Source: Haloarcula sp. DT43 | GTDB lineage: Archaea; Halobacteriota; Halobacteria; Halobacteriales; Haloarculaceae | DNA length: 64,000 nt | Direction: 5' to 3' | Assembly: GCF_037078405.1 (NCBI RefSeq) | Contig: NZ_JAYMGZ010000001.1 | Span: 1,116,001-1,180,000 of the forward strand | Shown here: one piece after another, positions 2,353-21,999 of the stretch | Position numbering within the stretch: the first letter of the stretch is position 1 | How the letters are laid out: each line of letters opens with the position of its first letter | Notes under the pieces: model-generated | What the model was told of the DNA's origin: nothing | What the model saw: the letters and a program-made list of their open reading frames with translations, nothing else | The model's database searches: none | Position numbers and translations under genes: made by a program

Positions 2353-3903
2353 TCAGATTCTACCAAGCTGTTTTAACGTTAATACCCGGCTTTCGACGTG
2401 TTTCTTTTCGGACTTCTTATGGTCGGTATAGGCCGGCGTTCTGTCAGACGTATCGAGCCCAAGTATTACCGTCCCATCCATGTTCTCTGGGATCGGATAC
2501 CCTAGAAGATGAAGAAGTGTAGGTGCAACATCTGCGATTCCATTCCGTTCGGCTCGCCCATCACTGGTTGCAATGTCTGGTCCGTTAGCAATGAGGATAC
2601 CTTCCCGCTCGTGGACACCCGAGTTTGGCATCGGACCAGTCTTCCGGGTGAAAATCTGGGTTCCCAAATTACCAGAACAGTAGAACCCAGTAGTCGTTTC
2701 TAGCACAAGGTCTGGTGCTTGTTCGATATATGGGCCATGGTAGATATCGTCTCGCTGATAAACATTTTTGAACACGTTTTTCCCAGTCTTGGGATCTGTT
2801 ACGTCAAGAAACATTTCTGTGAGTTCGTCACAGATTTGGTCATAGGCTGCTTGACTGACCTGCCCGTACTTCTCGCGACCAACCAAGTTGAGGTAGATAT
2901 TCGGCATCACACCGAAACTATAGGCTGAAGTCTCTGTCCAGTTGATAGCATCCATAATCCTGTCGTTCCGGGGCATTTGGTCCTTTGCTGCCGACTTGAC
3001 ACTGCTAGGAATAAGAAATTCTAATGTGTCTGCGCTGATGTGGTTTTTGAGAAAGTCGTACGCATCGGTCAACACTGCCGTCGATGTGCCGACATCGTAT
3101 TCTAGATACCCCTTCTGATTGAGTAACGCGTTAATATTCAACTCAGTATGGCACGGCTTGAATCCGTGGTCACTTGCAATTACGACATTGACGCGCTCGT
3201 CGAAGCATGCGAGAATATTTTCTAACGCTTCGTCAAAACGCTTGTATGCGTCCAGAATCGCTGCTCCAAATGACGAATCCTCATGAGCGGGATGCGACTC
3301 ATGCATATACGCCCAGAAGTGGTGCTGGATATGATCAATTGCATTGAACATTAAGAAGTACAGAGGAATATCGAACGTTGAGATGAGGTGTTTGAAGAAC
3401 TCCTCTCGTGCAGCGATACGCTTCATGACACCGTCGACGATATCTGCAGTGTCGTCTTGCCAGTTTATCCTATAGTCGTAGTAGTCCGGAATTATCTCTT
3501 TGAGCGATATTGGAGATACGATCTGGTCCTCGTTGATTCGAGCGAGACTACCCTGCACGAAGAATCCGTCCGTATTGTGATACGGAATCAGTGGTACCGA
3601 GCCAAGTCCGATGGGTTCGTCCATATGCTCCCAAAAAAAATCGAATCCTTTTTTTCGAGCATCGTTAATGTAGAAGTTCAGGGTCTCCGGAAAACGACCC
3701 ATGAAATCGAACATCCCGTATTTTGCTGGGTTCTGTCCAGTCGCAAATGATGGCCAGGCCACCGAGGTGGTTGGTGGCTGTGTACTATCGAGAATTGAGT
3801 GGTACCCATCGGCCATTAATCGATCCAGCGTTGGGAGGTCTTCCCGATAATTATCAATTATCCTATATGTACCTCCATCTAAACCTATGATCGCCGTTTT
3901 CAT
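2353..3903 (-). CDS. alkaline phosphatase superfamily phosphodiesterase (type I NPP-like)
   Basis: This 516-residue protein resembles type I phosphodiesterase / nucleotide pyrophosphatase proteins. Metal ligands appear in 'AIIGLDGGTYRIID' (D9) and 'VVIASDHGFKPCHTELN'. The nucleophile region is 'PPTTSVAWPSFATGQNP' (about residues 43-59), with Thr/Ser as nucleophile. Members of this family in archaeal glycan clusters are thought to cleave phosphodiester or pyrophosphate bonds of nucleotide sugars or lipid carriers, but the substrate here is unknown. The start lies 4 nt downstream of the stop of the ribbon-helix-helix gene (3908-4123), so the two form an operon transcribed away from the decayed transposase. 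The gene is AT-rich compared with the chromosome to the right. No signal peptide is visible. Confidence 0.85.
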   Translation of the reverse strand: MKTAIIGLDGGTYRIIDNYREDLPTLDRLMADGYHSILDSTQPPTTSVAWPSFATGQNPAKYGMFDFMGRFPETLNFYINDARKKGFDFFWEHMDEPIGLGSVPLIPYHNTDGFFVQGSLARINEDQIVSPISLKEIIPDYYDYRINWQDDTADIVDGVMKRIAAREEFFKHLISTFDIPLYFLMFNAIDHIQHHFWAYMHESHPAHEDSSFGAAILDAYKRFDEALENILACFDERVNVVIASDHGFKPCHTELNINALLNQKGYLEYDVGTSTAVLTDAYDFLKNHISADTLEFLIPSSVKSAAKDQMPRNDRIMDAINWTETSAYSFGVMPNIYLNLVGREKYGQVSQAAYDQICDELTEMFLDVTDPKTGKNVFKNVYQRDDIYHGPYIEQAPDLVLETTTGFYCSGNLGTQIFTRKTGPMPNSGVHEREGILIANGPDIATSDGRAERNGIADVAPTLLHLLGYPIPENMDGTVILGLDTSDRTPAYTDHKKSEKKHVESRVLTLKQLGRI

Positions 3904-3907
3904 AGTT

Positions 3908-4123
3908 CTATTCCAAATATCCTAAAGACTCCAAGTTTTCACGGGCCCTGCTTTCATCCACCGAATGTCTCTCGGACACTGAATCCTCAATTTCTGGGTG
4001 TTCTTTGGTAACCTCACTGAGAACGAAGGTGACATACGCTTCAATAGAATCGAATTTGGACCGACTGACACGCTCTTTGAGACGACTGGCAAGTTCGTCC
4101 GAGATTTCGATAACTTGGGCCAT
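3908..4123 (-). CDS. small ribbon-helix-helix-like protein with C-terminal LGYL tail
   Basis: This 71-residue protein begins 'MAQVIEISDELASRLKERV', a typical ribbon-helix-helix strand plus first helix, followed by a second helix around 'FDSIEAYVTFVLSEV'. An acidic linker leads to the C-terminus 'RENLESLGYLE'. The start at 4123 was chosen over the longer frame because a TATA-like box (4147-4155) lies 28 nt upstream, as expected for a leaderless transcript, and because the ribbon strand then begins the protein. It is cotranscribed with the phosphodiesterase 4 nt downstream. It could be an autoregulator or, because the terminal motif matches that of the sulfatase-like enzyme at 592-2055, a partner protein for these enzymes. 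Function is not established. Confidence 0.75.
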   Translation of the reverse strand: MAQVIEISDELASRLKERVSRSKFDSIEAYVTFVLSEVTKEHPEIEDSVSERHSVDESRARENLESLGYLE

Positions 4124-4146
4124 ATGTCTAAATATTCCTCTTTCAT

Positions 4147-4155
4147 GTAATAAAG
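4147..4155 (-). promoter_or_regulatory. TATA box for the RHH-phosphodiesterase operon
   Basis: Minus-strand 'ctttattac' is centred 28 nt upstream of the ATG at 4123, the spacing expected for a leaderless haloarchaeal promoter. It supports the short start of the RHH gene. Confidence 0.5.
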
Positions 4156-4284
4156 TCGTCGGATAAGTCATTTGTAATTTCCAAAGAAATATTAGGGAAA
4201 TGATGGTGGTGCAAGCTAAATGTGAGTTTGTTATGGATGCTTCGTGTGTTAACATTGTCTATATAATACCACATGACTGTATTC

Positions 4285-4850
4285 ATATAAATTCGGTAGC
4301 AACCGGCTCAGTAGTATTTAGAGCGAAGCATTGTGCTAACGAGCAAAACTCTGGAGTCAGCGTTCGTCGATTGAATCCTCGGAAAATCCGTTCGACAGAG
4401 TTCCGATTTCCGTAGCGACACATTTGAAATCGGGGCCCTGCTCATTGAAGCGCAGGTTGGAGATGCTGAGCACTATCAATCAGAAAAGCAGTAGTTTCAA
4501 CATCGTGTTTGTGCTGGAGTTCGTGCAGGAAAATTTTCGTGAGAGCAGTCGTAGTTGTCGGAAACACCGGATGTGAAGCAGCTCAACTGCAGATCAGTGC
4601 GGCGTACAGCTAGAATAGCTCGTCGTCGCTCTGAATCACTATTTCGTCGAGTGCGATTTGATTCGGTCCTTTCCCGGATTTGGCTGTAGATCGGCTTTCT
4701 GAACCTAATCGTGGATGGCTTTTCGACTGTGTCGGATTCGACGGTATTCGACATTGACAGCCTCGCAACGTGTGATTGAATACCTAACGTCATCGATGGC
4801 TCGGGTGTCCGCTCGCGCTCCACAAAATCCAAATCAAAGCCATTAGAGTT
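4285..4850 (-). pseudogene. decayed IS6-type transposase
   Basis: Reading the minus strand in several frames gives a clear broken transposase of the haloarchaeal IS6 type. The pieces, in order from 4850 to 4285, are 'FDLDFVERERTPEPSMTLGI' and then, after a shift, 'IRHSRKAIHD' stop 'VQKADLQPNPGK'. After another shift come 'GPNQIALDEIVIQSDDELF' stop 'LYAAL', then 'TKIFLHELQHKHDVETTAF', 'LIDSAQHLQPALQ' stop, and 'RYGNRNSVERIF'. The three DDE residues are all recognisable: D in 'ALDE', D in 'LIDS', E in 'SVERIF'. At least two frameshifts and three in-frame stops show it is dead. I could not find its inverted repeats. It is much older than the intact element at 7995-8737 and belongs to a different IS6 subgroup, judging by the different motifs. 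Confidence 0.85.
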
Positions 4851-4951
4851 ATAATTATTAAATTTTGGCTCGGAAATATTCTTACTGAGACAGCCGCTAC
4901 CTCTATTACACTGAATTTAAGTACTCCGTCCATAGAGAGATAACCAAAGAA

Positions 4952-6202
4952 ATGTTTGATTCTCGAAGGAAGTCAATCTACCTAATCGCTATCGTGACTA
5001 TTGCTGCAATATTAGATTTCATATATGTCTTCCCAAGAATGAGCTTATCTAAGGTGCTAATGCCGTTTGCATTAGTTGGCATCGGGTCCGGATTTATTCT
5101 TCGGAATATGAACAAAAGAAAGATTATGTACTCATTCCCAAGATGGATCACTAACATTGGGTTCTTATGGATTACATTTTACCTGTATTTGGTTCTACGT
5201 TGGGCAGTTTTACCGACCAGTAGGGGGTTCTCTATCCTTCAGAGCTATATCTTCATCCCTATTTTTGCAGCAACACTCATAATACTTTTGAGAGACCATG
5301 AAGATTTTAATAGGGTAGTACATTATGTACTCATTGCGATAGTCGCCTTGGCAATTTTATCAGTGCTTGATGTTTTATTCGGTGCCCAGCGTGCAGATCC
5401 ACTTGGTCTAAACCCAAACAATCTTGGGTTACGCTTTGTTGTCGGCCTTTTCTTAAGTGGTGTCTTGATTGAACAAACAGAGACCCGTGTACGGACTGGG
5501 TCATATGTCATCTGTATACTTATACTACTCCTTGGTCTGGGAGCAACAGGCTCACGTGAGGCATATATTTCATTTGTTTCAGCTCTAATATTCTACATAG
5601 TGGTCAACTACAATAATATTTCTCTGCGATACATACTTTCAAGGACGCTGGTTCCGGTTTTGGTGGCACTTGCCGGTATCATTATAATCGAACCGAATCT
5701 TGTCACCGGATCCTTTGGCCGGGTCAAAGCTCTAGTAACGTTCATCGCTAATCCGGATGCGCCTGTCGGCGCGGGTTCAAGATCTCTTAGTATTAGATAT
5801 TCATTGCTAAAAACATCTATTGAAATGATACAAGAAAAGCCACTTTTTGGCTTTGGGTTAGGGACATTTCAAGAATATACTTCAACATTAAATCGGTTTA
5901 ACCAGCCACGAGGTGCGCACAGCACATATTTGTATGTAGGCTCTCAGACAGGTTTGATTGGGCTCTTATTACTTATAGCGGTGTTTACTTCTATGCTTAA
6001 TACTATACGCCGAGGTATTTTTTTGGAATCTAGCAACATCTTGGGGGAGAAAAAGAGGATGTCATTACTTGGTAGTATCGTAATTGCCGGTTTTGTTAAT
6101 GCTATTGCGGCAGATGTCGTTCGATGGAAGATATTTTGGATTGGTATCGCATTAGCGCTCGCACATTACAAAATAATCGAAAAGAATAAAAGCAATTCAT
6201 GA
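4952..6202 (+). CDS. O-antigen ligase/polymerase-like membrane protein
   Basis: This 416-residue integral membrane protein has about ten or more hydrophobic segments. The Wzy_C-type signature lies late in the protein: 'SIRYSLLKTSIEMIQEKPLF' followed by 'GFGLGTFQEY', with 'RGAHSTYLYVGSQTGLIGL' in the large extracytoplasmic loop, including the conserved His. Proteins of this family polymerise or ligate lipid-linked oligosaccharides on the outer face of the membrane. Here it would act after the flippase encoded at 8993-10456. Codon use is strikingly AT-rich (many ata, tta, aga), unlike the core genome, which suggests transfer. Whether it is a polymerase or a ligase cannot be decided from sequence. 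Confidence 0.82.
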   Translation: MFDSRRKSIYLIAIVTIAAILDFIYVFPRMSLSKVLMPFALVGIGSGFILRNMNKRKIMYSFPRWITNIGFLWITFYLYLVLRWAVLPTSRGFSILQSYIFIPIFAATLIILLRDHEDFNRVVHYVLIAIVALAILSVLDVLFGAQRADPLGLNPNNLGLRFVVGLFLSGVLIEQTETRVRTGSYVICILILLLGLGATGSREAYISFVSALIFYIVVNYNNISLRYILSRTLVPVLVALAGIIIIEPNLVTGSFGRVKALVTFIANPDAPVGAGSRSLSIRYSLLKTSIEMIQEKPLFGFGLGTFQEYTSTLNRFNQPRGAHSTYLYVGSQTGLIGLLLLIAVFTSMLNTIRRGIFLESSNILGEKKRMSLLGSIVIAGFVNAIAADVVRWKIFWIGIALALAHYKIIEKNKSNS

Positions 6203-6438
6203 CCTCGATGAGAGTACTGTATATTCATCCATTTCACATCCTCAGGTCGATTATTGGCACTGTCTATGAGTCCTGTCAGAGAATTTTAGCTTATGTTCTG
6301 GATGTATCGTGGTTATTGACCCTGAGATCTAATCCAAATCGTATACCTCTTTTATTTGGGCTTGTTTTCCACTTCAATTATGAGAACCTCCTCATTCTCG
6401 TAGATCACTTCATAACTCTTTGTCTGGTCAAAGGTTGA
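6199..6438 (+). pseudogene. possible truncated ORF after the ligase-like gene
   Basis: A 79-codon frame begins in a 4-bp ATGA overlap with the ligase-like gene and reads 'MTSMRVLYIHPFHILRSI', which superficially resembles the start of a GT4 glycosyltransferase. No glycosyltransferase motif follows, and the last 29 codons lie antisense to the end of the gene at 6352-7935. It may be the remnant of a deleted downstream gene or chance. Confidence 0.2.
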
Positions 6439-7935
6439 AGCAATCATTTCAGGGGCCGCTCTTCGTTGCCCTCCACCCGGAATTTGAATTGTATCCTTGC
6501 GGAAATAGATATGAGTTGGATTTAGTTGATATTTTTTAAGTACCGCGGTAAAACACTCCGGCGAGAGGCATTCTGATATAGCTTTTTGCTCGGCTAAGTT
6601 TTCATGGAACTTGCCCTCCCATTCTGCCCCCCATGACCCACTAAGTCGCGTTCGTTTCGCGAACATTGGAAACATCTCTGCTCTATTCCCAGATACGATA
6701 AATCGTGCATCACTCTTAGTCTCAGACTGGACCCAGTCAGTTGCTTCTTGATCGTCCCCATCGTATACAGATTCTAGAGTTGGCTGATGCGTGATTCCGC
6801 CTGTAACCGGCACGGCAAGTAGGCAAACAATGCTGCCCACAGTTATTACAGTCCGAATCTGTCTCGATATATTTGGTTTTAAAAAATGGGCTATCCCGAC
6901 ACTTGGAAGACGAGCAATAAGAGGTGCAACAAGAATGACAGCCGCAAGAAGACTAAACCGTTGCCGTGACACTGTGAACCCGATAAGGCAGGGCCATAGG
7001 ACTGCAAACCAATCGTGCCGGTACGCTGCGTACAATGCTCCGATTAGTACCAGACTGTACGAAAATTTTGGGCTAACAACTGCTGTTTCGATTCTATAAT
7101 ATTGAAGTGGATTGATGAAGCTCTGGATAGCTCCGCCGTGTGTCTCTGCAGCGTATAAAAACACCTCAGACCCGTGGACAACCGTTACGAAAAGCACCCA
7201 AGGACAAATAAGGGCTGTGGAGACAGCAGCTATCGAAGCTGTAGACCGAATTGTAGTCCGATTTATGGGTTGAGCGGAAACAAGCAGCACCAAGCTGGCA
7301 GCAGTAAAAACTGCATAAATCGGGTGAGTGAGTGCAGTGGCCGACGCAAGCACAGATGCCGACCATTTTGACCAAGAAGCGCCTGTACGAAAATGATGTG
7401 CTGTAACACCGAGAGTTCCGACTGAATAAAAATATGCTTGCGCTCGCACAATGCCTCCTGCTCTAAGATGGTACCATGCAGTCGCAGGCAGTACACCGAT
7501 GAGAATACCGACAACGGCTGCCTGAATTTCTGACTGTGACCGTTGAAACTCGAACCATGAAGCCGCGGCAGCTGTGCTAACCACGAATACTGGCGGTATG
7601 ACTCTCGTAATTGTAAGCGCATCTATGCCCAATGAGAGGGGAATCGCAAGTACATACATACCGAGGGGTGGATAGGCGAAGGGCAACCCGTCAGGGGAAA
7701 TGAGAGGGATAGAATAGGGGAGGACAAACATGTTTGAACGGATTGCATCCGCTCCGAGAAGGTACATTCCAGCAACGCTGTGTGGGTCAGAATGAATTGA
7801 TCGCTTCGCCAGAGATGTTGTCAAAGATATTACGAACCCAGGAAAAAGATACCAGTGCTCCTTTATCGCCGCAAATATTGCCAGATGCCGATTGAAATTA
7901 GAAATAATTCTCTTCACAATTCCTATTGCACTCAT
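6352..7935 (-). CDS. GT-C type membrane glycosyltransferase (GT39/ArnT-like)
   Basis: This 527-residue protein has a long N-terminal block of about ten transmembrane segments (to about residue 390) and a soluble C-terminal domain. The first outer loop has 'SPDGLPFAYPPLGMYVLAIP', of the kind seen in polyprenyl-phosphate sugar transferases of the GT-C fold. Such enzymes take sugar from a dolichyl-phosphate carrier and add it on the outer membrane face. The ATG at 7935 was chosen over the GTG at 7941 because a TATA-like element (7956-7965) lies 25 nt upstream. The IS6-type element is inserted about 60 bp upstream of the start, just behind the promoter. The gene converges with the ligase-like gene. 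Sugar and acceptor are unknown. Confidence 0.72.
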   Translation of the reverse strand: MSAIGIVKRIISNFNRHLAIFAAIKEHWYLFPGFVISLTTSLAKRSIHSDPHSVAGMYLLGADAIRSNMFVLPYSIPLISPDGLPFAYPPLGMYVLAIPLSLGIDALTITRVIPPVFVVSTAAAASWFEFQRSQSEIQAAVVGILIGVLPATAWYHLRAGGIVRAQAYFYSVGTLGVTAHHFRTGASWSKWSASVLASATALTHPIYAVFTAASLVLLVSAQPINRTTIRSTASIAAVSTALICPWVLFVTVVHGSEVFLYAAETHGGAIQSFINPLQYYRIETAVVSPKFSYSLVLIGALYAAYRHDWFAVLWPCLIGFTVSRQRFSLLAAVILVAPLIARLPSVGIAHFLKPNISRQIRTVITVGSIVCLLAVPVTGGITHQPTLESVYDGDDQEATDWVQSETKSDARFIVSGNRAEMFPMFAKRTRLSGSWGAEWEGKFHENLAEQKAISECLSPECFTAVLKKYQLNPTHIYFRKDTIQIPGGGQRRAAPEMIASTFDQTKSYEVIYENEEVLIIEVENKPK

Positions 7936-7955
7936 TATCACGATTACTGTACTCT

Positions 7956-7965
7956 AATTTAAAAC
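7956..7965 (-). promoter_or_regulatory. TATA-like element of the GT-C gene
   Basis: The AT-rich stretch 'aatttaaaac' (plus strand) is centred 25 nt upstream of the ATG at 7935. The IS6 element begins about 30 bp further upstream, so the core promoter is intact but any upstream control region has been displaced. Confidence 0.4.
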
Positions 7966-7986
7966 AGTTCGTGGAGTGAGACGTGA

Positions 7987-8745
7987 ACAAATATGGCACT
8001 GTCTAGTTGAGGGATTGAGAAGTGAGCAGGCCGTAGCGAGAGGTGTTCATGTCACTCGCAGACCTGCTCAGAGAAACCTTAGAGGAGGACAGTCAAGACG
8101 TTTGGGAGAACGAGCGGACCCCGACACCCGTCCGGCGATTTGGAGTGCGTCTCCACACGGCGGGGCTGTCGATCAGGGAGACAGTGGCGATCTTAGACCT
8201 GCTGGGTGTCGATCGCTCTCACGGTGCGGTCTGGAACTGGGTGCATACGCTGTCCGAGGCTCAGAGCGACCCGCCGACGGCGTCGCCGTCGCGGGTCGCG
8301 GTCGATGAGAAACAGATCAAGGTTGACGGCGAGAAAAAGTGGTTGTACGCCGCTGTCGACACCGAATCAAAGCTGCTGCTCGAAGTTGACGTGTTCAGCC
8401 GCCGCGGGACTGACCCCGCGGCGGCGTTCCTGCATCAGCTCACCGAGAAACACGATGTTGCCGATTCAGTGTTTCTCGTCGATGCTGGCGGCTACCTGAC
8501 TGCCCTCTCACGTCACGATTTGAGCGGTCGGCTCGACTACCGAATCCGGAACCACATCGAAAAGTGGTTCCAGACTGTGACCATGCGAATCGACCGCTTC
8601 CACTCCTTCTGGAGGGGCAGTCAGTCCAGCGCGAAACAGTGGATACGACGCTTTAGACACCACTACAACCACGAACGACCGAACCAGGCACTCGACGGAC
8701 GAACGCCAGCGGAGGAGATTCAGAACTAGACAGTGCCACAAATAT
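7987..8745. mobile_element. IS6-type insertion sequence with intact ends and 8-bp target duplication
   Basis: The element itself is 7995-8737 (743 bp). Its ends are 14-bp perfect inverted repeats, 'ggcactgtctagtt' at 7995-8008 and its complement at 8724-8737. It is flanked by the perfect 8-bp direct repeat 'acaaatat' at 7987-7994 and 8738-8745. IS6 family elements typically make 8-bp duplications, and the single transposase gene fits. Perfect ends, a perfect duplication and an open reading frame point to recent insertion. It lies between the GT-C gene and the flippase gene, which are divergently transcribed. Confidence 0.95.
8049..8729 (+). CDS. IS6 family transposase
   Basis: This 226-residue DDE transposase is preceded by a GTG two codons upstream (8043); the ATG at 8049 gives the usual start 'MSLADLLRETLEED'. 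An N-terminal helix-turn-helix ('LSIRETVAILDLLGVDRSHG', then 'AVWNWVH') precedes the catalytic core. The catalytic residues are visible: first Asp in 'RVAVDEKQI', second Asp in 'VFLVDAGGYLTAL', and Glu in 'NHIEKWFQ'. The C-terminus 'NHERPNQALDGRTPAEEIQN' is characteristic of haloarchaeal IS6 members. The reading frame is intact and the stop lies inside the right inverted repeat. The protein is expected to be active. Confidence 0.93.
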   Translation: MSLADLLRETLEEDSQDVWENERTPTPVRRFGVRLHTAGLSIRETVAILDLLGVDRSHGAVWNWVHTLSEAQSDPPTASPSRVAVDEKQIKVDGEKKWLYAAVDTESKLLLEVDVFSRRGTDPAAAFLHQLTEKHDVADSVFLVDAGGYLTALSRHDLSGRLDYRIRNHIEKWFQTVTMRIDRFHSFWRGSQSSAKQWIRRFRHHYNHERPNQALDGRTPAEEIQN

Positions 8746-8992
8746 CAAAAATACAACGAAATGATAATTTAGCCTGTCCCATTGGCAGTTCAGAATATAC
8801 GCTTATCAAGCCTTAACATACCGTTTCTGTTTGGCTCGGCCGGCAGTTCCTGTCTCTCCGTGAGTGCGGTACGAAACATCAACCAGGGATTGAGCCAGTA
8901 AGATTGACTTCCGTCAAGCGATCCAACATGGATAATTAAACCAATTAACACAGGAAAGGTTATTTCCCTCCAGAGAATGGCCCGAATATGTA

Positions 8993-10456
8993 ATGGGTTT
9001 AGGAAAGAGTGTTAGCTGGAATGCATTAATCACATTTGTGGTTACCGTCGGCTCGCGATTTTCGAAATTTCTCGGGAGTGTTGTCTTTGCTAACGTTGCC
9101 GGAGGCGCGTCGCTTGGTGTGTTCTATTTGTTCACCTCGTTGTTCCGTGTCCTGCGGAAACTTATCGGACTCGGACTCGGCCAGGCAATCGTCACTCAAA
9201 CGGCCGAGGCAGTTTCCAGCGACGACACCGACCATGTCGGTGAAATTGTCTCTTCGGCACTGCTCGTCCGACTAACCAGCCTCTGTTTCGTCAGCGTAGT
9301 ATTGTACGCTGCACGGCACCGTCTGGGCCGGTACGTTGGGCTCAACCGCATTTGGATATATCTCGTCGTCGCGCTCAGTCTGACAATGCTCCTCTCAACT
9401 GCCAGATCCGTGCTCGTCGGGGTCAAACGTGTTGATGTCGCCAGCACCCTTGATTTCCTCAAAGAGATTTCGATGATTGTTATTCAGATTGCCCTCGTGT
9501 TGCTCGGGTTTGATGCATTCGGACTGGTGGCTGGGTTTCTCGCTGGCATGGCAGTTCCGACCGCGCTGGCTATCGTCCGGACGGCTCGGTTCCTTGAGGA
9601 CTTGCATCCGGCGAGAGACCGTATCGAAGCACAACTTTCCTTCGCCCGGTTCTCTTTTCTCGACTCACTGGTCGGCGGTGAACAGATCTGGATTGACACG
9701 CTGATGCTCGGTGCGGTCGTTACGATAACGCAATCTGATATCGGTGTGTACGGAATAACATACTCGATAGCGATGTTTGGACTGACCTTATCTTCGTCTA
9801 TAAGCCGTGCCATTCTCCCCGAAATCCGAGACCTTGACGTAGCGGACCAATATCAGAACCGTGATAGACTCGTTCAGAAGTCAATAAAATATTCGACGCT
9901 CATTGCACTCCCTCTGTTCTTCGGTGCGTTAGCCATTGGTGACAACGTGCTGGCCTTTATTTATGGGTTTGACCGCGGCTTTGAGCCCCTCCTCTTTCTA
10001 ACCGCAGGCACGATGGTGTTCAGTATTTATCAACCGGTGCATCAGACATTTTACGCCCTCGACAGACCTCGAACCGCCTTCTTGGTCAGTGCCGTGACAA
10101 GCCTCAGCAATTTCTCACTAAATATTCTTCTGATACCACCATTCGGAATTGCAGGTGCCGGTTTATCTACAGCGGCATCAATGTGTCTTTCGGCAGCTAC
10201 TGGACTCCTTTTACTTCGACGGTTGGGTGTCGTTTCACCGCTCCCGTTCCGAGCCTGGCGAATACAGTTCGGTGCGGCAGTCTTGATGGCCCTCATCGTC
10301 CGATTCGGCGACGTTCAGGTCGGAACCGACTCGTTGCTGTCTACCAGTATGCTGGTCACCGCCGGTGTCGCAATTTATGCGAGTGTCGTCCTCGTCGGTG
10401 ATTCGGAAATTCGAAAACAACTTTTCAATCGGCTCGGCTCGCTGACCGCACCGTGA
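8993..10456 (+). CDS. oligosaccharide flippase (polysaccharide biosynthesis/Wzx-like)
   Basis: This 487-residue membrane protein has about 12-14 predicted transmembrane helices and the look of the MOP exporter superfamily. The start is 'GKSVSWNALITFVVTVGSRF', followed by the conserved early segment 'ANVAGGASLGVFYLF' and a late repeat of the bundle around 'PPFGIAGAGLSTAASMCLS'. Such proteins flip lipid-linked oligosaccharides from the cytoplasmic to the outer face, supplying the ligase or transferase that follows. It is the first of three plus-strand glycan genes. It lies 247 bp from the IS element, whose insertion split the intergenic region shared with the divergent GT-C gene. The ATG at 8993 fits the usual N-terminal helix. 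Confidence 0.88.
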   Translation: MGLGKSVSWNALITFVVTVGSRFSKFLGSVVFANVAGGASLGVFYLFTSLFRVLRKLIGLGLGQAIVTQTAEAVSSDDTDHVGEIVSSALLVRLTSLCFVSVVLYAARHRLGRYVGLNRIWIYLVVALSLTMLLSTARSVLVGVKRVDVASTLDFLKEISMIVIQIALVLLGFDAFGLVAGFLAGMAVPTALAIVRTARFLEDLHPARDRIEAQLSFARFSFLDSLVGGEQIWIDTLMLGAVVTITQSDIGVYGITYSIAMFGLTLSSSISRAILPEIRDLDVADQYQNRDRLVQKSIKYSTLIALPLFFGALAIGDNVLAFIYGFDRGFEPLLFLTAGTMVFSIYQPVHQTFYALDRPRTAFLVSAVTSLSNFSLNILLIPPFGIAGAGLSTAASMCLSAATGLLLLRRLGVVSPLPFRAWRIQFGAAVLMALIVRFGDVQVGTDSLLSTSMLVTAGVAIYASVVLVGDSEIRKQLFNRLGSLTAP

Positions 10457-10489
10457 TATTAACAACAGGTGATCCGGTTACTCTCACAA

Positions 10490-10498
10490 TTTCTTTTT
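10490..10498 (+). terminator. T-rich stretch after the flippase gene
   Basis: A run 'ttctttttt' lies about 35 nt after the flippase stop, in the gap before the next glycosyltransferase. Archaeal termination commonly uses such T-runs without a hairpin. The assignment is weak. Confidence 0.3.
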
Positions 10499-10640
10499 TG
10501 ACTGCAGTCCACTCGTCACCAGTCGGTTTCTGGAGGACGTAGTACAATCCGATGCGGCGGCTTGATTCGTCGTAATGACTAATGTAACGATATGTCTCCC
10601 ATCGAAAGCGTTTAGTCCAATCATGGCCACTCGAAAGGTA

Positions 10641-11750
10641 ATGTCGAAGATCGGCGTTTTGACTATTCCGGACCTCACGTCGTACAACCCGGAACGAATT
10701 ACGTTTGGAATCTGCTCAGCTATCGGGACTGACAACGACGTCGATATTGTCGGTGCTGAGTCGGTTAGCGACAGAATTGCGGACTGGTTTTCTATTTTCA
10801 GCTATCTACCACGTCAGCGTTCGTCCAGGCCCCTCCAACTTTTATTACTCCTGCCAGTGACAGCGTTAAATTTACTTCTATATATTCATCGAGAAAAACC
10901 GGACGTTCTTGCTTCATTCGGTAATTTGGGTGTTAACGGATTTCTTGTTACTACCATTGGGCGTCTCGTCTCGACACCGTCAGTCGTCCGCGTTACGAGC
11001 GATATGTTTGAAATCTACCGATATCAGAGTAGCCCGTTTGAGCGCCTGAACACATTCGTACAGAACAACGTCTTCGGATATATCGCTGTTCAACTGGCCA
11101 GTCGTGTCATCGTCCTCGGACCGAGAACAGAGGACAAACTCGTCAACCGAGGTGTCGCTTCATCAAAAATTCATATTATCCCACAACCGCCACAGACCGA
11201 GGAAGTACCACATCCAGATTCGGCGTTTTCAGTGCGTGCTAAACACGACATCCCTGCAGACATTCCTGTAATACTCTATGTGGGTCGCTTCTCCAATGAG
11301 AAGGGGGCAGAGCGGCTGATTCAAACGGTAAACTATGTCCTCAACCGCAGTGACGATATCCACTTTCTTCTGGTCGGGGCAGGTGGTGAAAAAGCGAAAC
11401 TGGTCGAGCGTGCTCTTGAGGGGCCAAGAGTTCACTTTGCTGGCCATGTGAAGCACGAGTATATCCACTACTATTACAAAGCGGCCGACATCTTCCTCCA
11501 GCCCTCTAACACAGAAGGACTACCCAACACTGTGTTGGAGAGTCTTTACTTCAACCTCCCAGTTGTTGCGACGGACTCCGGCGGTGAAGTGATTACACAC
11601 GTGTCAAATATCGGTACAGATAATCGTGAACTCGGTGAACTATTACTTAGAGGTGGAGAGAATCTCATAACAGATACGTTACCGGACCGAGCAACGTCTC
11701 AGCGAAACGCCGAACTGTATCGGCGTCTCTTTTCAACGATCGAAGTATAA
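10641..11750 (+). CDS. GT4 family glycosyltransferase
   Basis: A 369-residue GT-B enzyme. The donor domain starts at 'VILYVGRFSNEKGAERLIQ' and continues with 'FLLVGAGGEKAKL', 'VHFAGHVKHEYIHYYYKAAD' and the nucleotide-sugar motif 'LQPSNTEGLPNTVLESLYFN'. The inter-domain motif is 'SSKIHIIPQPPQ', which lacks the common N-G-V-D and may reflect a different acceptor side. The frame is open upstream to an ATG at 10575, but 10641 gives the expected start 'MSKIGVLTIPDLTSYNP' and a normal family length. It sits between the flippase and the GT2 gene on the same strand and probably adds one sugar to the lipid-linked chain. Confidence 0.87.
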   Translation: MSKIGVLTIPDLTSYNPERITFGICSAIGTDNDVDIVGAESVSDRIADWFSIFSYLPRQRSSRPLQLLLLLPVTALNLLLYIHREKPDVLASFGNLGVNGFLVTTIGRLVSTPSVVRVTSDMFEIYRYQSSPFERLNTFVQNNVFGYIAVQLASRVIVLGPRTEDKLVNRGVASSKIHIIPQPPQTEEVPHPDSAFSVRAKHDIPADIPVILYVGRFSNEKGAERLIQTVNYVLNRSDDIHFLLVGAGGEKAKLVERALEGPRVHFAGHVKHEYIHYYYKAADIFLQPSNTEGLPNTVLESLYFNLPVVATDSGGEVITHVSNIGTDNRELGELLLRGGENLITDTLPDRATSQRNAELYRRLFSTIEV

Positions 11751-11865
11751 CGACCCAGGATGAACTATAATATGAGCCGATGTCATCGCTGGAGCAAAGT
11801 CTCCTTCTGCCATATTTCTATATCGCTATCTGTCTGCTTTCCACAAGAACCTCACAGAATTAATT

Positions 11866-12783
11866 ATGACTGACCAATACAGCATTTCGGTTGTGATTGC
11901 CACCCGAAACCGGCCTTCGAAACTCGAAAACTGTCTTCGTTCGATATCGCAACAGGAAAGCGTTCCAGCGGAAGTGGTTGTGGTTGACGACGGTACGAAC
12001 TCTCTCGCCAGCGACGTCATGAGGAGTCTACTCCCAGCGACAGTCCAACTCGAAGTAACCACCTCGGCGGGACCCACAAGTACGTCGACAGCACGGAATA
12101 CCGGTGCACGAGTTGCTTCCTCCAGCATTGTTCTTTTTCTGGACGACGATGTCGTCCTTGCACCGTCGTACATCAACCGACTGCGTGAGATGTACAAGTC
12201 GCTGGATAGTTCAGATCTGGCTGGCATCGGAGGTTACGACGATGAGCTAAGGACACCGTCCTGGGTTGAGGAGCTGTATAACAGCCTATTCTATCTGGCC
12301 GAAGGTCGGTGGCGTATCAACAGTTGTGGCATGCAATCATGGGGACACGTCTCCGGCACAACAGCCGCCGATTGGCTCTCGGGGAACAACGCGAGTTATA
12401 AACGGTCTGTCCTCGTTGACCACCCCTTTCCACATTGGGAAGGTGGACGTGAAGCGCTTGAGGACATCGCAATGGGTTGGCGACTCAAGCGCGCTGGCTA
12501 CCGGCTATTGATAGATCCCGGGCTGACAGTTGATCACGACGAAACAGGTATTACGGAGGGCGACTTCGCGTTCGGGGTGAAGCGGGGAAAAAACCGAATC
12601 AGGATATTCCGAAACTGGGGCAGACAGATACTCTGGCCACTGTTCGTTTGGGCATATTTCGGAGAAACCTTGAGACAGTTCCTGGCACCCGCTGTCGACG
12701 GCGACGTACGGGCCCACTGGCAAATCGGTTGTGGCATGATCGCTGCCCCATTCGTGTTTTTGTTGGGAGTTCTTAATCAATAG
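11866..12783 (+). CDS. GT2 family glycosyltransferase
   Basis: A 305-residue GT-A fold enzyme. 'ISVVIATRNRPSKLENCLRS' starts the nucleotide-binding half and 'VVVVDDGTNS' carries the uridine-contacting aspartates. 'IVLFLDDDVVLAPSYI' is the metal-binding DxD region, and 'GREALEDIAMGWRLKRAGYR' carries the ED catalytic-base motif. The C-terminal 60 residues contain one or two hydrophobic stretches ('LWPLFVWAYFGET', 'GMIAAPFVFLLGVLN'), which suggests membrane association. It inverts the anomeric centre of a nucleotide sugar in the cytoplasm. It is likely the third gene of the plus-strand glycan run, 115 bp after the GT4 gene. Confidence 0.88.
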   Translation: MTDQYSISVVIATRNRPSKLENCLRSISQQESVPAEVVVVDDGTNSLASDVMRSLLPATVQLEVTTSAGPTSTSTARNTGARVASSSIVLFLDDDVVLAPSYINRLREMYKSLDSSDLAGIGGYDDELRTPSWVEELYNSLFYLAEGRWRINSCGMQSWGHVSGTTAADWLSGNNASYKRSVLVDHPFPHWEGGREALEDIAMGWRLKRAGYRLLIDPGLTVDHDETGITEGDFAFGVKRGKNRIRIFRNWGRQILWPLFVWAYFGETLRQFLAPAVDGDVRAHWQIGCGMIAAPFVFLLGVLNQ

Positions 12784-12798
12784 TACAAGGTGTGATAG

Positions 12799-13905
12799 CT
12801 AGCCAGTGACTGTCCGATACAACTTGATGAGCTCTTCTGCGTTCTCTCGCCACCCAGCCACCTGTGCCGGTCCAGTGTTTGTCGAAATTTCATAAGCCTC
12901 GGTGCTTATGACCGTTTCTAATACAGCAGCCAGCGACTCTGCAGTGTTTGGTTTATATACTTGGCCACGATTCTCGCTGTCCAGCATCTCTCGGATACGG
13001 CCTGTATCCGGTGCGACAGCGTACGTCCCGCAGGCCATAGCCTCTTTCAGGGCGATTGGGTGATTCTCCATCCGTGAGGAGAGCACGAATACGTCACTAG
13101 CGTTGAGATAGTCCGGTATATCTTCATGTGGGACTCGTCCAGTGAATCTGACGACATCCTCGATCGCTAATTCCGAGGCTGTCTGCTTGAGCGACTCGAA
13201 CTGCGAGCCATCTCCGATAACAGTCAAATGGAACGGTATCCCATCGTCACGTAATATCGATGCTGCTTGAAGTATCTGGTCTACACGTTTTACCGGTTCT
13301 AAGCGACCTACGAACAGCAACTGTGGCACTGCTTCATCTCTCGATAGAGCTTGGACACTTGAGTTGGTGTAAGAGTAGAACAGGTCTGTATTAACTCCGG
13401 GATCTATGGTAATATATGGTGTTTCAAACATATCCGGATCCTCGTAGCTTTCCTCACAACCTCCCCAGAATACAAGCCCATCTGCGCGCCTCAGATGCCG
13501 GTGATACCGTGAATTCACCGACCCACGTACAGCGTGGAACACCGGGGCCGATGCTATCGATGATAACCGTGTGAGAATTGGACGTCCAGTAGTGAGAATC
13601 ATATCTGTGTCTCTAAATAACGCCGGACGGTGTTTTTTTAGCCTTCGAACGAACAATTCTTGATTTAGATGCCGGAGCACTTTCCCGAGCGGTTCCGGCA
13701 TATCATAACTGATTCCATACAGGTAGGGGCAGCTAACAGGGGCACAACGTCGGTCGAATTCGATTGGATTTCGCTTTTTATCTCGCTGGAACGTGTAGGT
13801 AACGCTGTGCCCGAGTTCCTCAAACTCCGAACCAAGATGCAGATCGTTGATTTCTGCACCACCACGTGCGTGGCCCAGATGCGTACAGACTATCGTAATA
13901 TCCAT
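12799..13905 (-). CDS. GT4 family glycosyltransferase
   Basis: A 368-residue GT-B enzyme, convergent with the GT2 gene (15 bp apart). The N-terminal acceptor domain starts 'MDITIVCTHLGHARGGAEIN', with the Gly-Gly-Ala motif of the family. The donor domain starts 'LLFVGRLEPVKRVDQILQAA' and continues with 'LTVIGDGSQFESL', 'VRFTGRVPHEDIPDYLNASD' and 'LSSRMENHPIALKEAMACG'. It is full length with an ATG start. Its substrate is not predictable. It closes the glycan island: the next 700 bp hold no intact gene and the GC-rich core begins beyond. Confidence 0.88.
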   Translation of the reverse strand: MDITIVCTHLGHARGGAEINDLHLGSEFEELGHSVTYTFQRDKKRNPIEFDRRCAPVSCPYLYGISYDMPEPLGKVLRHLNQELFVRRLKKHRPALFRDTDMILTTGRPILTRLSSIASAPVFHAVRGSVNSRYHRHLRRADGLVFWGGCEESYEDPDMFETPYITIDPGVNTDLFYSYTNSSVQALSRDEAVPQLLFVGRLEPVKRVDQILQAASILRDDGIPFHLTVIGDGSQFESLKQTASELAIEDVVRFTGRVPHEDIPDYLNASDVFVLSSRMENHPIALKEAMACGTYAVAPDTGRIREMLDSENRGQVYKPNTAESLAAVLETVISTEAYEISTNTGPAQVAGWRENAEELIKLYRTVTG

Positions 13906-14167
13906 TCTATGACTCGTCGTGTAACAGTGTAGGCCCCGCTGGTTTTACTCTGTATATTTCTATTCATCTACTATGCGTCTATTCGTAATAGTCCGATTTC
14001 TCATCAGTGACCGTGTTTGTGTTTAGAAATTTAGCAGGGAAATATATACTTTTTTACCACTCGATATTATCCTTGGTGTGCATACCGGGAGTAGTAATGT
14101 GAGCTATCCACGAGTTTCCCAAACGGTGTCCGTACCGCCGATGTTAATTACTTTGTCTTTTCCCCTC

Positions 14168-17595: not shown

Positions 17596-17772
17596 ATTCC
17601 ACGTCTGTTCCGGAGCAGTGAGAGTGTTTCCCTGATTGCAGGGTCCCCTGGTGGCGGACAGCGGTACGAGCGAAAGATGATGCCGGCCTTCGGCTATCAA
17701 TATAGCATCCCGCTTCTCACACGCTATTCGTATAGCAGTAATGGCCTTGTGCGCGATTCGTCTGGACTCCGT

Positions 17773-18531
17773 ATGCACAACACCGGCGACCAGGGGTCGG
17801 CGACCGAGGCGGGCCAGCCAGCCGATGGCGCTGGGTGCGGGCCGGCAAACCGTTCGGAGACGGATGAGGCGACGCGGGAGAAGAGCCTCGGCGTCGAACT
17901 GTGTCTGGGTCACCCGGACCTGGTGCTGACGGACGCGACCGAGCGCAGTCCGGGCGTGACCGTCCGTCCGGAACAGATGGTCGACGATGGGGCCACGACC
18001 TTCCTCGTCGTCACGGCGGCGGGCGAGACGCTCGACCGGTTCGAAACGGAACTGGAACGGGACGGCACGGTGTGTGACGCCGTCGCCCTGGACTGGACGG
18101 AGACGGAGCGCGTCTACAGGATTGCGCTCGCGGACAGCGCCGTCCGTGGCACACCGCCGCTGGTCCGTGCTGGCGGGCGGGTCCTCGACATGGAAGGGGC
18201 CGGCGGGCAGTGGCACGTGCACGCGCAGTTCCGGTCGCGGTCGGCGCTGTCGCAGTTCCGAACCGAGTGTGCCGAACGGGACGTCTCGTTCCGGCTGGAC
18301 CGGCTGTACTGGACCAGCGGCGAGGCGAACGCCGGGGCCTGCGGCCTGACCGCGGACCAGCAGGTCGCGCTCGAGACGGCCCACAGAGAGGGGTACTTCG
18401 ACGTGCCCCGCGGGATTTCGCAGGCCGAACTGGCGGACGAACTCGACATCTCCCCGTCGGCGATGTCCCAGCGGATTCGGCGCGGGATGGACCAGGTCAT
18501 CGGGTCGGAACTCGGGCTCTCCGAGGAGTGA
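17773..18531 (+). CDS. Bat-type HTH_10 transcriptional regulator
   Basis: A 252-residue DNA-binding protein. The C-terminus is the HTH_10 domain of the bacterioopsin activator family: 'LTADQQVALETAHREGYFDV' then 'PRGISQAELADELDISPSAM' and 'SQRIRRGMDQVI'. The region before it (about residues 50-190) is a BAT-type sensor-like alpha/beta domain, with 'HVHAQFRSRSALSQFRTEC' just ahead of the HTH. The ATG at 17773 ('MHNTGDQG') was chosen; the frame extends to 17677, but that part reads as promoter sequence. It opens a run of four regulators on the plus strand (to 21999). Its ligand and targets are unknown. Confidence 0.85.
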   Translation: MHNTGDQGSATEAGQPADGAGCGPANRSETDEATREKSLGVELCLGHPDLVLTDATERSPGVTVRPEQMVDDGATTFLVVTAAGETLDRFETELERDGTVCDAVALDWTETERVYRIALADSAVRGTPPLVRAGGRVLDMEGAGGQWHVHAQFRSRSALSQFRTECAERDVSFRLDRLYWTSGEANAGACGLTADQQVALETAHREGYFDVPRGISQAELADELDISPSAMSQRIRRGMDQVIGSELGLSEE

Positions 18532-18634: not shown

Positions 18635-20329
18635 ATGAGACACCGAATCGTGAGCGGGATATGCGCTTTCCTTCTCCTGTCGACGGTCGCGTCTGCCTCC
18701 GCAGGTGTCGCCGCCGCGGAGACCGGCCAGTACGCCGAATACACGGCGACGGTCGACGACACCGAGCCAGCGATACAGGCGGTCGAGGCCACACAGGCTG
18801 TCGGGACCGGACCGAACGGGACCGCCTACGTCTGGGAGCGGATAGACGGCGAGCGAGCCGGCAGCTACCGGCTGTCGGTGGCGGTCAGTTCACCACAGGA
18901 GGGACTCGCGGTCTGTGCGCGGGCGAACGGTTCGGCGACGTGTACGCCGGTCGGACCGAACGGGACTGCGGCCCTCTCGACTCCCGGGTCAACCGGGCTC
19001 GACACCCTCTCTGTCTCGCTCTACAACACGAGCGCCAACGGGACGCTGGATACGCGGTCGGTGTCTCTCCAGCCGATTCAGCGCGCCGGTGACCTCGACG
19101 CCGACGGTCTCACCAACGGGAACGAAGTCGCGCAGGGGACGGCTCTCACTACCGCCGACACGGATGGTGACGGGCTCTCGGACGGCGCGGAGGTCCATCA
19201 GCGCGGGACCGACCCGGCGGCGGCTGACACCGACGGGGACGGGGTCGAAGACAGGACCGAGCTTCGACAGGGCACCGACCCGCTGGACGTCGACACGGAC
19301 GGTGACGGGCTCTCGGACGAACGCGAACTGGCCCTGGGAACGAACCCGACCGTCGCCGACACGGACGGCGACGGGCTCTCCGACCAGCGCGAGGCGTCCG
19401 GAGAGACCGACCCGACTGATGCCGACACGGACAACGACGGGGTCGTCGACGGGCGGGAACTGGAGACCGGCACCAACCCGGTGGAGGCCGACACCGACGA
19501 CGACGGCGTCGCCGACGGCCGGGAGCTATCCCTGGGCACGGACCCGACCGTCGCGGACACTGACGGCGATGGCCTCGGGGACGGGAGAGAACTCGACGCG
19601 GGCACCGCCCCCACGGAGAGCGATACGGACGGCGACGGGCTCGACGACGGACGCGAACTGTCGGTCGGTACGTCCCCGACAACCGCGGACACCGACGGCG
19701 ACGGCCTCAGCGACGGGCAGGAGGTCTCGGCCCTCGGAACGGACCCCCTCGCGTCCGATACGGACGGCGACTTCCTGACCGACCACCAGGAGGTCGCCTG
19801 GGGGACGAACCCGAACAGCGCGCTGACGCCCGCCTGGGTGACGAGTTCGCTTCTGGGGTTCCTCGTCGGCATCGGGCTCACGACCGCGGCGATACGGCGC
19901 GGCTGGGTCACGGACCTCTCGACGGCCGCTGGGCTGTTCGTCTATCGGGCCCTCGAACTGGACCGCGAAATCATCGCGGTCAACCGTGACATCGAGGCCA
20001 CGGACGCGGCGGCGTCCGACGGCGAGGGCAGCGACGCCGACACCGCGGCCGAGGCGTTCGAGCGGGCGGACGGGTACGTCCCCGACGAACGGCTCGTGAA
20101 GTCGATGCTGCGGGCCGAGAGCGGCCGGATGCGCCAGACGGAAATCGTCGACGCGACCGACTGGTCGAAAGCGAAGGTCAGCCGCCTCCTCTCGAAGATG
20201 GTCGAGGACGACACGGTGGTGAAAATCCGCCTCGGCAGAGAGAACCTCATCTGCCTGGAGCGGGCAAAGCCCGCGGCCGCGAACTCGCCCCACGCGGACG
20301 ACAGCAAGCCACCGGCGCCCGGTGGATAA
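18635..20329 (+). CDS. membrane-spanning protein: eleven outer calcium-binding repeats plus cytoplasmic winged helix
   Basis: This 564-residue protein starts with a signal peptide (cleavage near 'VASASAGVAAAE'). A beta-rich outer domain with N-glycosylation sequons runs to about residue 150. Eleven 22-residue thrombospondin type 3-like repeats follow (about residues 153-390), each with a 'DTDGDGLSD' calcium loop and 'ELxxGT' turn. A transmembrane helix ('SSLLGFLVGIGLTTAAI', about 400-420) leads to a cytoplasmic tail. The tail ends in a winged helix: 'MRQTEIVDATDWSKAKVSRL' then 'LSKMVEDDTVVKIRLGRENL'. The architecture suggests a one-component transmembrane transcription factor that senses calcium or the cell surface. 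A TATA-like 'aaaaaggatatt' lies about 28 nt before the ATG. The separate domains are clear; the sensing role is inferred. Confidence 0.85.
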   Translation: MRHRIVSGICAFLLLSTVASASAGVAAAETGQYAEYTATVDDTEPAIQAVEATQAVGTGPNGTAYVWERIDGERAGSYRLSVAVSSPQEGLAVCARANGSATCTPVGPNGTAALSTPGSTGLDTLSVSLYNTSANGTLDTRSVSLQPIQRAGDLDADGLTNGNEVAQGTALTTADTDGDGLSDGAEVHQRGTDPAAADTDGDGVEDRTELRQGTDPLDVDTDGDGLSDERELALGTNPTVADTDGDGLSDQREASGETDPTDADTDNDGVVDGRELETGTNPVEADTDDDGVADGRELSLGTDPTVADTDGDGLGDGRELDAGTAPTESDTDGDGLDDGRELSVGTSPTTADTDGDGLSDGQEVSALGTDPLASDTDGDFLTDHQEVAWGTNPNSALTPAWVTSSLLGFLVGIGLTTAAIRRGWVTDLSTAAGLFVYRALELDREIIAVNRDIEATDAAASDGEGSDADTAAEAFERADGYVPDERLVKSMLRAESGRMRQTEIVDATDWSKAKVSRLLSKMVEDDTVVKIRLGRENLICLERAKPAAANSPHADDSKPPAPGG

Positions 20330-20492: not shown

Positions 20493-20667
20493 GTGAAACA
20501 GTTCGATACCCCGTGTGAAACAGTCAGAAACCCCTTCCCAGTGACTGAAGCGCCGAATACGCCGGATAGATTGCCCGAAAACGCCTTTTTACCCGACCCC
20601 GATTCGCGGTAAGTCGGTCATTATCGGCCCGTTAAATCGGTGAAACAGTCGCAACCGGCGGAACAGT
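20493..20667. promoter_or_regulatory. repeated GTGAAACAGT boxes upstream of the tandem membrane HTH genes
   Basis: The 380-bp gap 20330-20709 holds three perfect copies of 'gtgaaacagt' (20493-20502, 20515-20524, 20640-20649) and a partial fourth, 'ggaacagt' (20660-20667). All are in the same orientation. The first two are 22 bp apart, and the last two are about 20 bp apart, just upstream of a TATA box ('ggtatat', 20674-20680). Spacing near two helical turns and position next to the core promoter fit binding sites for a dimeric regulator, perhaps one of the HTH proteins that follow. Confidence 0.6.
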
Positions 20668-20673
20668 CGACCC

Positions 20674-20680
20674 GGTATAT
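20674..20680 (+). promoter_or_regulatory. TATA box of the first membrane HTH gene
   Basis: 'ggtatat' is centred about 32 nt upstream of the ATG at 20710, giving a leaderless or nearly leaderless transcript. Confidence 0.5.
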
Positions 20681-20709: not shown

Positions 20710-21414
20710 ATGTCGATAGCCGAAACGACTTCCGAACCCACGACGACCGAGGCTGAGGAGTCCGCGACCGACGAGTCGCCGTCTTCGGAGTCTGCGTCGG
20801 GCGACGACCTCACCCGTGACGACCTCTTCCACGTCCTCCAGTGTCGTCGCCGCCGCCTGGTCCTCAAGTACCTCCACGAGTACTCCGGCGACGGGCCGGC
20901 CGAGATGAGCGACATCGCCGAGCACATCGCCGCGCTGGAACACGACACGACGGTCGATTCGCTCCGCTCGAAACAGCGCCAGCGCGTCTACATCGCGCTG
21001 TACCAGTCACACCTCCCGAAGATGGACGACGCGGGCGTCGTCAACTACAACCAGGACCGCGGACTCGTCGAAGCGACCGCGCTGGCGGACTCCTTCGACG
21101 GGTACCTCGACGAGGAGCCCTCGCTCCTGTCGACGACGCCGGCCGTGGAGTCAGTACCGTCGACCGAGCCGAGCGCCCCGACCGGCGGGCACGACCCCGG
21201 CGAGCAGTGGTCGAGACGGTATCTCGGCACGGCGTGTGCCGCGCTGGTCGCGGTCGGTGGCGTCGCGGTCAGTGGGGCCGCGGTCCCGGGCGTGGCTCTC
21301 GCTCTGGTCGTGAGCGCGGCGTTCCTGCTGCTGGCGCTGGGGCACCGGCTCGCACTGTCGGGGCCCCAGTCGCTCGCAGACCGTCTGCGGACCGTCTTCG
21401 GCCAGGGGCCGTAA
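20710..21414 (+). CDS. membrane-anchored winged-helix protein (DUF7344-like), copy 1
   Basis: This 234-residue protein has an acidic disordered start (to about 34), then a helix-turn-helix domain: 'DDLFHVLQCRRRRLVLKYL', 'AEMSDIAEHIAALEHDT', and 'RVYIALYQSHLPKMDDAGVV'. This is the haloarchaeal winged-helix type often labelled DUF7344. A linker leads to two C-terminal hydrophobic helices ('RYLGTACAALVAVGGVAV', 'VPGVALALVVSAAFLLLAL'). It therefore places a DNA-binding domain on the inner face of the membrane. A second, shorter paralogue begins 15 bp after its stop. The repeated GTGAAACAGT boxes upstream may serve autoregulation. Confidence 0.8.
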   Translation: MSIAETTSEPTTTEAEESATDESPSSESASGDDLTRDDLFHVLQCRRRRLVLKYLHEYSGDGPAEMSDIAEHIAALEHDTTVDSLRSKQRQRVYIALYQSHLPKMDDAGVVNYNQDRGLVEATALADSFDGYLDEEPSLLSTTPAVESVPSTEPSAPTGGHDPGEQWSRRYLGTACAALVAVGGVAVSGAAVPGVALALVVSAAFLLLALGHRLALSGPQSLADRLRTVFGQGP

Positions 21415-21429
21415 GCGCACACCGGACAG

Positions 21430-21999
21430 ATGCGTGGACTCAGCGGCACATCCGGAGGGCGCGTGTCCCCGACGGCCGGAGTCGACGATGCCCCCGCTGC
21501 CGAAGGGACGGACGGGGACGGTCTCGACGACGCGACGATGTTCGAACTTCTCGGCAACGAGCGCCGTCGAGCCTGCTTGCAGTGCCTGGCCGCACACGAG
21601 ACGCCGCAGTCGGTCAGTGCCCTGGGCCGGGAGGTGGCGCGTACGGTCGCCGACGCGGAGACAGACAGCGACGACCTCTACGACAGCGTGTACGTCTCCC
21701 TCTGTCAGACCCACCTTCCCAAACTCGACGCCGTCGGCCTAGTCGAATACGAGCGGGAGCGAAAGCAGGTCCGCCGTGGCTCCAGATTCGACGCTATCAG
21801 ACGCCAGTTCGAAGCGGCCAGCACGGACGAGGGAGTAGCGAGCGACACCTTTCGAGTCGGTCTCGCGGCGAGCGCCTCGACGGTCGTGCTGGGCGGGGCC
21901 GCGGTCGTCAGCCCACCGACGGTCAGGACGGTACTGCTTCTCGGACTGGTCGCGGGTCACCTTCTCGTACTCGCGTCCACTGCCACGGGTAGTAACTGA
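21430..21999 (+). CDS. membrane-anchored winged-helix protein (DUF7344-like), copy 2
   Basis: A 189-residue paralogue of the preceding protein. The HTH part reads 'MFELLGNERRRACLQCLAAH', 'SVSALGREVARTVADAE' and 'DSVYVSLCQTHLPKLDAVGL', aligning block by block with copy 1. Two hydrophobic C-terminal helices follow ('GLAASASTVVLGGAAVV', 'VRTVLLLGLVAGHLLVLAS'). The 15-bp spacing implies cotranscription. Two different paralogues in one operon suggest a heterodimer or a regulatory pair. The start at 21430 is the first ATG. The true start could be later, as the first 30 residues are low complexity. Confidence 0.78.
   Translation: MRGLSGTSGGRVSPTAGVDDAPAAEGTDGDGLDDATMFELLGNERRRACLQCLAAHETPQSVSALGREVARTVADAETDSDDLYDSVYVSLCQTHLPKLDAVGLVEYERERKQVRRGSRFDAIRRQFEAASTDEGVASDTFRVGLAASASTVVLGGAAVVSPPTVRTVLLLGLVAGHLLVLASTATGSN

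Follow-up and report, generated by a model that had tools for sequence, protein, structure and literature searches.

A haloarchaeal family of predicted transmembrane one-component regulators with an Ig-like head, TSP3 repeats and a winged helix, and its putative phased GNAAC operator

Described membrane-bound regulators and the layout of the window protein

ToxR and CadC are single-pass, membrane-tethered winged-helix proteins with an outside sensor and an N-terminal OmpR-type DNA-binding domain. In archaea, the sensing of surface and wall is poorly known for the haloarchaea. Transmembrane transcription regulators (TTRs), which join a DNA-binding domain and a transmembrane (TM) region in one chain and are mostly single-pass, are reported for 367 of 404 archaeal species by a survey (PMC10269533). 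ArnR and ArnR1 of Sulfolobus are membrane-bound one-component regulators that act via two promoter boxes and control surface structures (PMC6396743).

The window analysed here, a stretch of 64,000 nucleotides from Haloarcula sp. DT43, encodes a protein of 564 aa in a frame on the + strand (18635-20329). The original prediction had described it as a signal peptide, eleven 22-residue TSP3 repeats, one TM helix and a cytoplasmic winged helix, able to pass an outside signal to DNA in a kinase-free manner. Its parts are as follows.

18635..20329, + strand: coding sequence with Ig-like domain, eleven TSP3 repeats, TM helix and DUF7343 winged helix (frame, Pfam, hydropathy, AlphaFold2)
18635..18718, + strand: predicted signal peptide, residues 1-28 (hydrophobic stretch 5-23, AxA-type end)
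18764..19078, + strand: N-terminal Ig-like beta domain, residues 44-148, with five N-glycosylation sequons (AlphaFold2, alignment, structure comparison)
19091..19822, + strand: eleven TSP3 calcium repeats, residues 153-396 (Pfam PF18884, E 1.8e-63; ligands intact)
19826..19897, + strand: predicted TM helix, residues 398-421, with RR on the inner side (hydropathy, AlphaFold2)
19898..20083, + strand: juxtamembrane helix and low-confidence linker, residues 422-483 (pLDDT < 50 in 437-468)
20084..20257, + strand: DUF7343 winged helix, residues 484-541, MarR/IclR-like (Pfam, AlphaFold2, structure comparison)

By hydropathy there are two hydrophobic stretches, residues 5-23 in the signal peptide and residues 402-420 in the TM helix, the latter with RR right after it. 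The five N-glycosylation sequons are all on the N-terminal side of the TM helix. AlphaFold2, run with 19 sequences, modelled the full chain with a mean pLDDT of 80.9, including head, rod, TM helix (residues 398-421) and winged helix. The beta domain (46-148) reached a pLDDT of ~88-90, the repeats ~95 and the winged helix (484-540) ~80-87. Signal peptide, single TM helix and cytoplasmic winged helix of the original prediction are supported by hydropathy, Pfam and AlphaFold2 taken together, the topology being a predicted one.

Domain searches of the parts placed both TSP3_bac (PF18884) and DUF7343 (PF24034) over their cut-offs. DUF7343 covers residues 484-541 with 83.9 bits against a curated cut-off of 27.6. 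HTH_IclR (24.1 bits, cut-off 22, E 3e-5) and MarR_2 are also matched, both more weakly than DUF7343. The C-terminal domain, for which a missing winged-helix profile would have spoken against the one-component reading, is thus recognized by such a profile, and a TM segment is predicted. Residues 482-543 superpose on solved structures of MarR proteins (middling Z of ~9, rmsd 1.4-2). No Foldseek match at E < 0.001 was obtained with the full chain. Neither a HisKA/HATPase or receiver domain, the marks of a two-component sensor, nor an OmpR-type winged helix (Trans_reg_C) was matched in Pfam at E up to 1.

The repeat region matches TSP3_bac in 11 stretches (210 bits, E 1.8e-63), and the ligand pattern D1-D3-D5-(D/N)9-E12 is kept in 11/11 repeats. 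Shuffled versions of the window protein (n=2000) never contained more than one ligand motif. The count of eleven repeats stands; the uniform length of 22 residues does not, as most repeats have 22 and two have 23. The domain architecture of the window protein is real and far from chance.

The Ig-like domain of ~105 residues with its conserved Trp and Cys pair was absent from the predicted layout. The columns W67, C94 and C103 are conserved in 39-41 of 43 relatives. Among solved structures, the modelled head aligns with Ig-like domains, one found in GH2 enzymes (Z up to 9.6) and another in an ice-binding adhesin (Z 8.3). Since these Z values are middling, only a common Ig-like fold, as modelled, is claimed and no function. 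With its conserved Trp and Cys pair, the head is a better sensor candidate than the calcium repeats.

Family, paralogues and surface-glycan genes

A survey for the same order of domains, proposed with the original prediction, found 43 distinct proteins in haloarchaea. Gene calls and gene starts in the compared loci were made within the analysis. Orthologues in the Haloarcula core clade are 68-79% identical and have exactly 11 repeats, as counted in 13/13 of those first compared. More remote full-length relatives occur outside this clade; the same domain order with 3-12 repeats is present in Halovivax, Halorussus, Halococcus, Halomicrococcus and others. Judged by these sequences, the architecture is a conserved haloarchaeal one, spread over several families. 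Strong matches to the window protein (E 1e-45) are found in 47/391 genomes of the class, some of them TSP3 proteins without winged helix.

The genome of Haloarcula sp. DT43 encodes three other proteins with signal peptide, ectodomain, TM helix and DUF7343, all without TSP3. A DUF7345 ectodomain was identified by Pfam in the two that were scanned (L002 and L003), and the layout of L004 is similar. These paralogues resemble the window protein in signal peptide, ectodomain, one TM helix and winged-helix family, whereas L002 and L003 lack the Ig-like head and the TSP3 repeats. The window protein is thus one form of a modular haloarchaeal family of membrane winged-helix proteins.

Many pairs of a TSP3 regulator and a DUF7344 gene are located near glmS or genes for UDP-sugar dehydrogenase, AglJ-like glycosyltransferase, DUF354, GlmM, sulfatases and arylsulfotransferase. 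Within 5 kb, 14/25 TSP3 loci have at least one glycan marker (glmS, UDP-sugar dehydrogenase, GT2, DUF354, sulfatase, ASST, GlmM or phosphodiesterase), versus 1/58 other DUF7343 loci. In the Haloarcula window, the glycan genes are 5-18 kb from the regulator and do not adjoin it. They form an island at ~0.1-14 kb with genes for glycosyltransferases, a flippase and sulfatases or phosphodiesterases. The island (window 1-14000) has a low GC3 and a transposase fragment at 8043-8729, and was probably exchanged horizontally.

An RNA ligase-like gene (PF09414, 16585-17475) is situated between the island and the regulator locus, and a BAT plus HTH_10 regulator (17677-18531) directly upstream of the TSP3 regulator. 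The latter neighbour is present in the checked core Haloarcula genomes and absent in the other genera examined. A further family, c4 (~540-620 aa), recurs beside regulator and glmS (L039, L041, L046, L051, L142, L146, L150, L153); the one member scanned had no Pfam or NCBIfam match.

DUF7344 neighbours and the phased GNAAC sites

Two DUF7344 genes directly downstream of the regulator, and the putative operator, had not been part of the original prediction. The features of this region are listed here.

20493..20524, + strand: two upstream GTGAAACAGT copies (20493, 20515; sequence inspection, genome count of GTGAAACAGTC)
20642..20664, + strand: putative proximal operator GAAAC-GCAAC-GGAAC, 9-bp phasing, ~12 bp upstream of a TATA box (TATATG at 20676)
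20710..21414, + strand: partner gene, N-terminal DUF7344 winged helix and two C-terminal TM helices (Pfam PF24035, E 5.5e-29; AlphaFold2; linkage)
21430..21999, + strand: second DUF7344 gene with hydrophobic C-terminal segments (Pfam), kept in many, not all, relatives

With a mean pLDDT of 60.6, the AlphaFold2 model of the DUF7344 protein, a winged helix and two C-terminal TM helices, is no better than fair. Other genera that have lost the TrkA side of the Haloarcula synteny still keep the pair of TSP3 regulator and DUF7344. Depending on the lineage, the DUF7344 gene is downstream, upstream or divergent.

Linkage to DUF7344 as a specific trait of TSP3 regulators was considered and rejected: other DUF7343 loci, mostly of Natrialbaceae, also show DUF7344, although it is usually farther away there and encoded on the other strand. 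This linkage occurs without the ectodomain and without a phased GNAAC operator, so linkage alone is no proof that the TSP3 regulator acts on DUF7344, and the argument rests on operator and gene order. The Natrialbaceae loci L176, L180, L187 and similar ones encode short proteins (~150-280 aa) of TM helix and DUF7343 with little or no ectodomain; DUF7344 is near on the opposite strand, and phased GNAAC sites were not found there. No DUF7344 was detected near longer DUF7343 loci that lack TSP3, for example L188, L216, L237 and L239.

The first DUF7344 gene is preceded by three copies of GTGAAACAGT (20493, 20515, 20640). Of the three GTGAAACAGTC 11-mers in the 3.75 Mb genome, two are in the intergenic region upstream of DUF7344 and one is in an apparently coding position. 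The core GGAACNNTCGNCCCNNTATAT matches 16/391 genomes of the class, once in each, at places corresponding to the regulator-DUF7344 intergenic site; the pattern was built from some of its own matched sites, and the count speaks for specificity, not for an independent discovery. All 16 genomes carry the regulator gene. Among six sampled Haloarcula genomes without a strong match to the regulator gene, none (0/6) contained GGAACNNTCGNCCCNNTATAT.

When more lineages are compared, they have in common GNAAC units that recur every 9-11 bp, about a turn of the helix, close to the TATA box. By a rule that was drawn by eye from the DUF7344-paired loci, two or more phased GNAAC precede the partner DUF7344 in 13/17 paired loci. 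Among DUF7344 genes that are unpaired, the count was 1/10 in the same genome and 0/12 elsewhere, and a control set mostly from Natrialbaceae gave 0/62. The paired loci L151, L153, L157 and L171 and the Halococcus-like clade fail the strict rule.

The test free of that choice concerned TSP3 regulators without a paired DUF7344. Phased GNAAC upstream of the own gene was found in 5/17 of them versus 18/797 (2.3%) other genes (P ~3e-5), after start codons had been placed next to the signal peptide by a rule of the analysis (3/17 in the first pass); the five positive loci stem from one region of the tree, and the count, which includes related organisms, is not one of fully independent cases. L045 has GAAACTGTATGAAACGGTCCGAAAC, for instance, and L152 has GAAACAGTCGAAAC.

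Since the regulator is common to the paired and the unpaired site-bearing sets, the TSP3 regulator rather than DUF7344 is the likely binder. From the pattern of conservation, it probably binds the phased GNAAC sites and controls the neighbouring gene. An operator as a general feature of DUF7344 was discarded on account of the other DUF7344 genes of the genome.

A regulon scan with GAAAC-GNAAC-GNAAC in Haloarcula gave many matches, and those inspected were mostly coding or repetitive. One of the strings, GAAACGAAGCGAAACGGGCGGAAAC (G000:C1:1080577-1080601; L242:1501-1525), consists of three units phased at 10 bp and lies shortly before a TATA-like box. The gene that follows encodes a hydrophobic protein of 81 aa without Pfam match. 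The same or a nearly identical string is present in ~10 other Haloarcula genomes. By its sequence, the site is a possible second target of the regulator.

Proposed mechanism, alternatives and comparison with known systems

The reading preferred with moderate confidence is a kinase-free transmembrane one-component regulator with an Ig-like head, a calcium-stiffened spacer rod and a winged helix on GNAAC sites. The head would be outside, kept away from the membrane by the TSP3 rod in the cell wall space. A change in head or wall (ligand binding, the state of glycan or S-layer, or tension) would be the input signal and pass through the single TM helix, probably by rearrangement of a dimer, to the cytoplasmic winged helix. 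Two or more winged helices along one face of the DNA would bind the GNAAC repeats one helical turn apart. The bound sites would immediately precede the TATA box of the DUF7344 neighbour or, in lineages lacking this partner, lie upstream of the regulator's own gene, and the effect on transcription may be of either sign. DUF7344 would be a second membrane-tethered winged helix, acting with or below the TSP3 regulator. Cell-surface glycan or envelope genes are the likely output. An extended scheme is put forward only tentatively: two membrane-tethered winged-helix proteins and no kinase, with the rod-mounted Ig-like sensor switching DUF7344 via the helically phased operator and thereby N-glycan or polysaccharide synthesis, as envelope-stress or surface-glycan signalling.

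The one-component reading of the original prediction is strengthened by domain order, predicted topology and a phased-repeat operator that tracks the gene family; its calcium signal is not. As a calcium sensor, the protein would gain or lose outside calcium at the TSP3 repeats, and the resulting change of length or stiffness would be the signal. Eleven intact calcium sites directly before the TM helix fit this idea, but members of the family differ in their number of repeats (3-12) while the Trp and Cys of the head are kept. Hypersaline brines and media of haloarchaea normally carry millimolar calcium, at which the repeats would be expected to remain occupied. Related genomes also encode many TSP3 proteins that have no winged helix, and the repeats of these are presumably structural. 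Because the ligands are intact in every repeat, the repeat number drifts across lineages and the brines are calcium-rich, the repeats look like a structural rod; calcium as signal for the regulator is unlikely.

Two further explanations concern the DNA-binding part, and both are judged improbable. A membrane protease might free the cytoplasmic part upon a surface signal, the soluble winged helix then acting alone. The linker that joins membrane and winged helix has a long stretch of low confidence (437-468) and would permit cleavage, but it varies freely among relatives and suits a tethered factor equally well. No recognized protease gene recurs in the examined neighbourhoods, in which part of the neighbours was identified. 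The operator might instead belong to DUF7344 and serve autoregulation, with the TSP3 protein acting elsewhere or only as membrane partner. In most paired loci the sites do occupy the promoter of DUF7344, which agrees with this; however, they are lacking at unpaired DUF7344 genes, in this genome as in others, and TSP3 regulators without nearby DUF7344 carry them upstream of their own gene. Binding by the TSP3 regulator remains the preferred reading.

If this reading is true, surface state would reach the genes without a kinase, a membrane-bound factor would occupy one DNA face through sites one turn apart, and calcium-repeat rods would serve to hold a sensor at a fixed distance from the membrane. 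The family is a defined candidate with sensor, rod, promoter and partner gene in cultured Haloarcula species.

A literature search outside most subscription papers found no paper that deals with DUF7343 or with archaeal proteins combining TSP3 and HTH, and nothing relevant on calcium with one-component or transmembrane transcription regulators. CsmR of Haloferax was rejected as a relative; the available part of its description presents a small 13 kDa protein and gives no membrane segment or DUF. Transmembrane transcription regulators such as ArnR and ToxR are already known, while architecture, operator and gene linkage of the present family appear undescribed in the searched literature. The window protein shares the tethered winged helix with ToxR and CadC, but carries it C-terminally and of the IclR/MarR type. 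A single chain with a predicted DNA-binding domain, a predicted TM region and no kinase makes it a candidate TTR by the sequence features of the survey. The main text of that survey contains no DUF domains, calcium or IclR, and its consulted passages describe neither TSP3 rods nor a GNAAC operator (PMC10269533). ArnR and ArnR1 have an N-terminal HTH, two C-terminal TM helices, a HAMP and a sensor domain and no large ectodomain (PMC6396743). The window protein differs from this layout by its C-terminal winged helix and single TM helix, and the DUF7344 partner is closer to the ArnR topology than the TSP3 regulator is.
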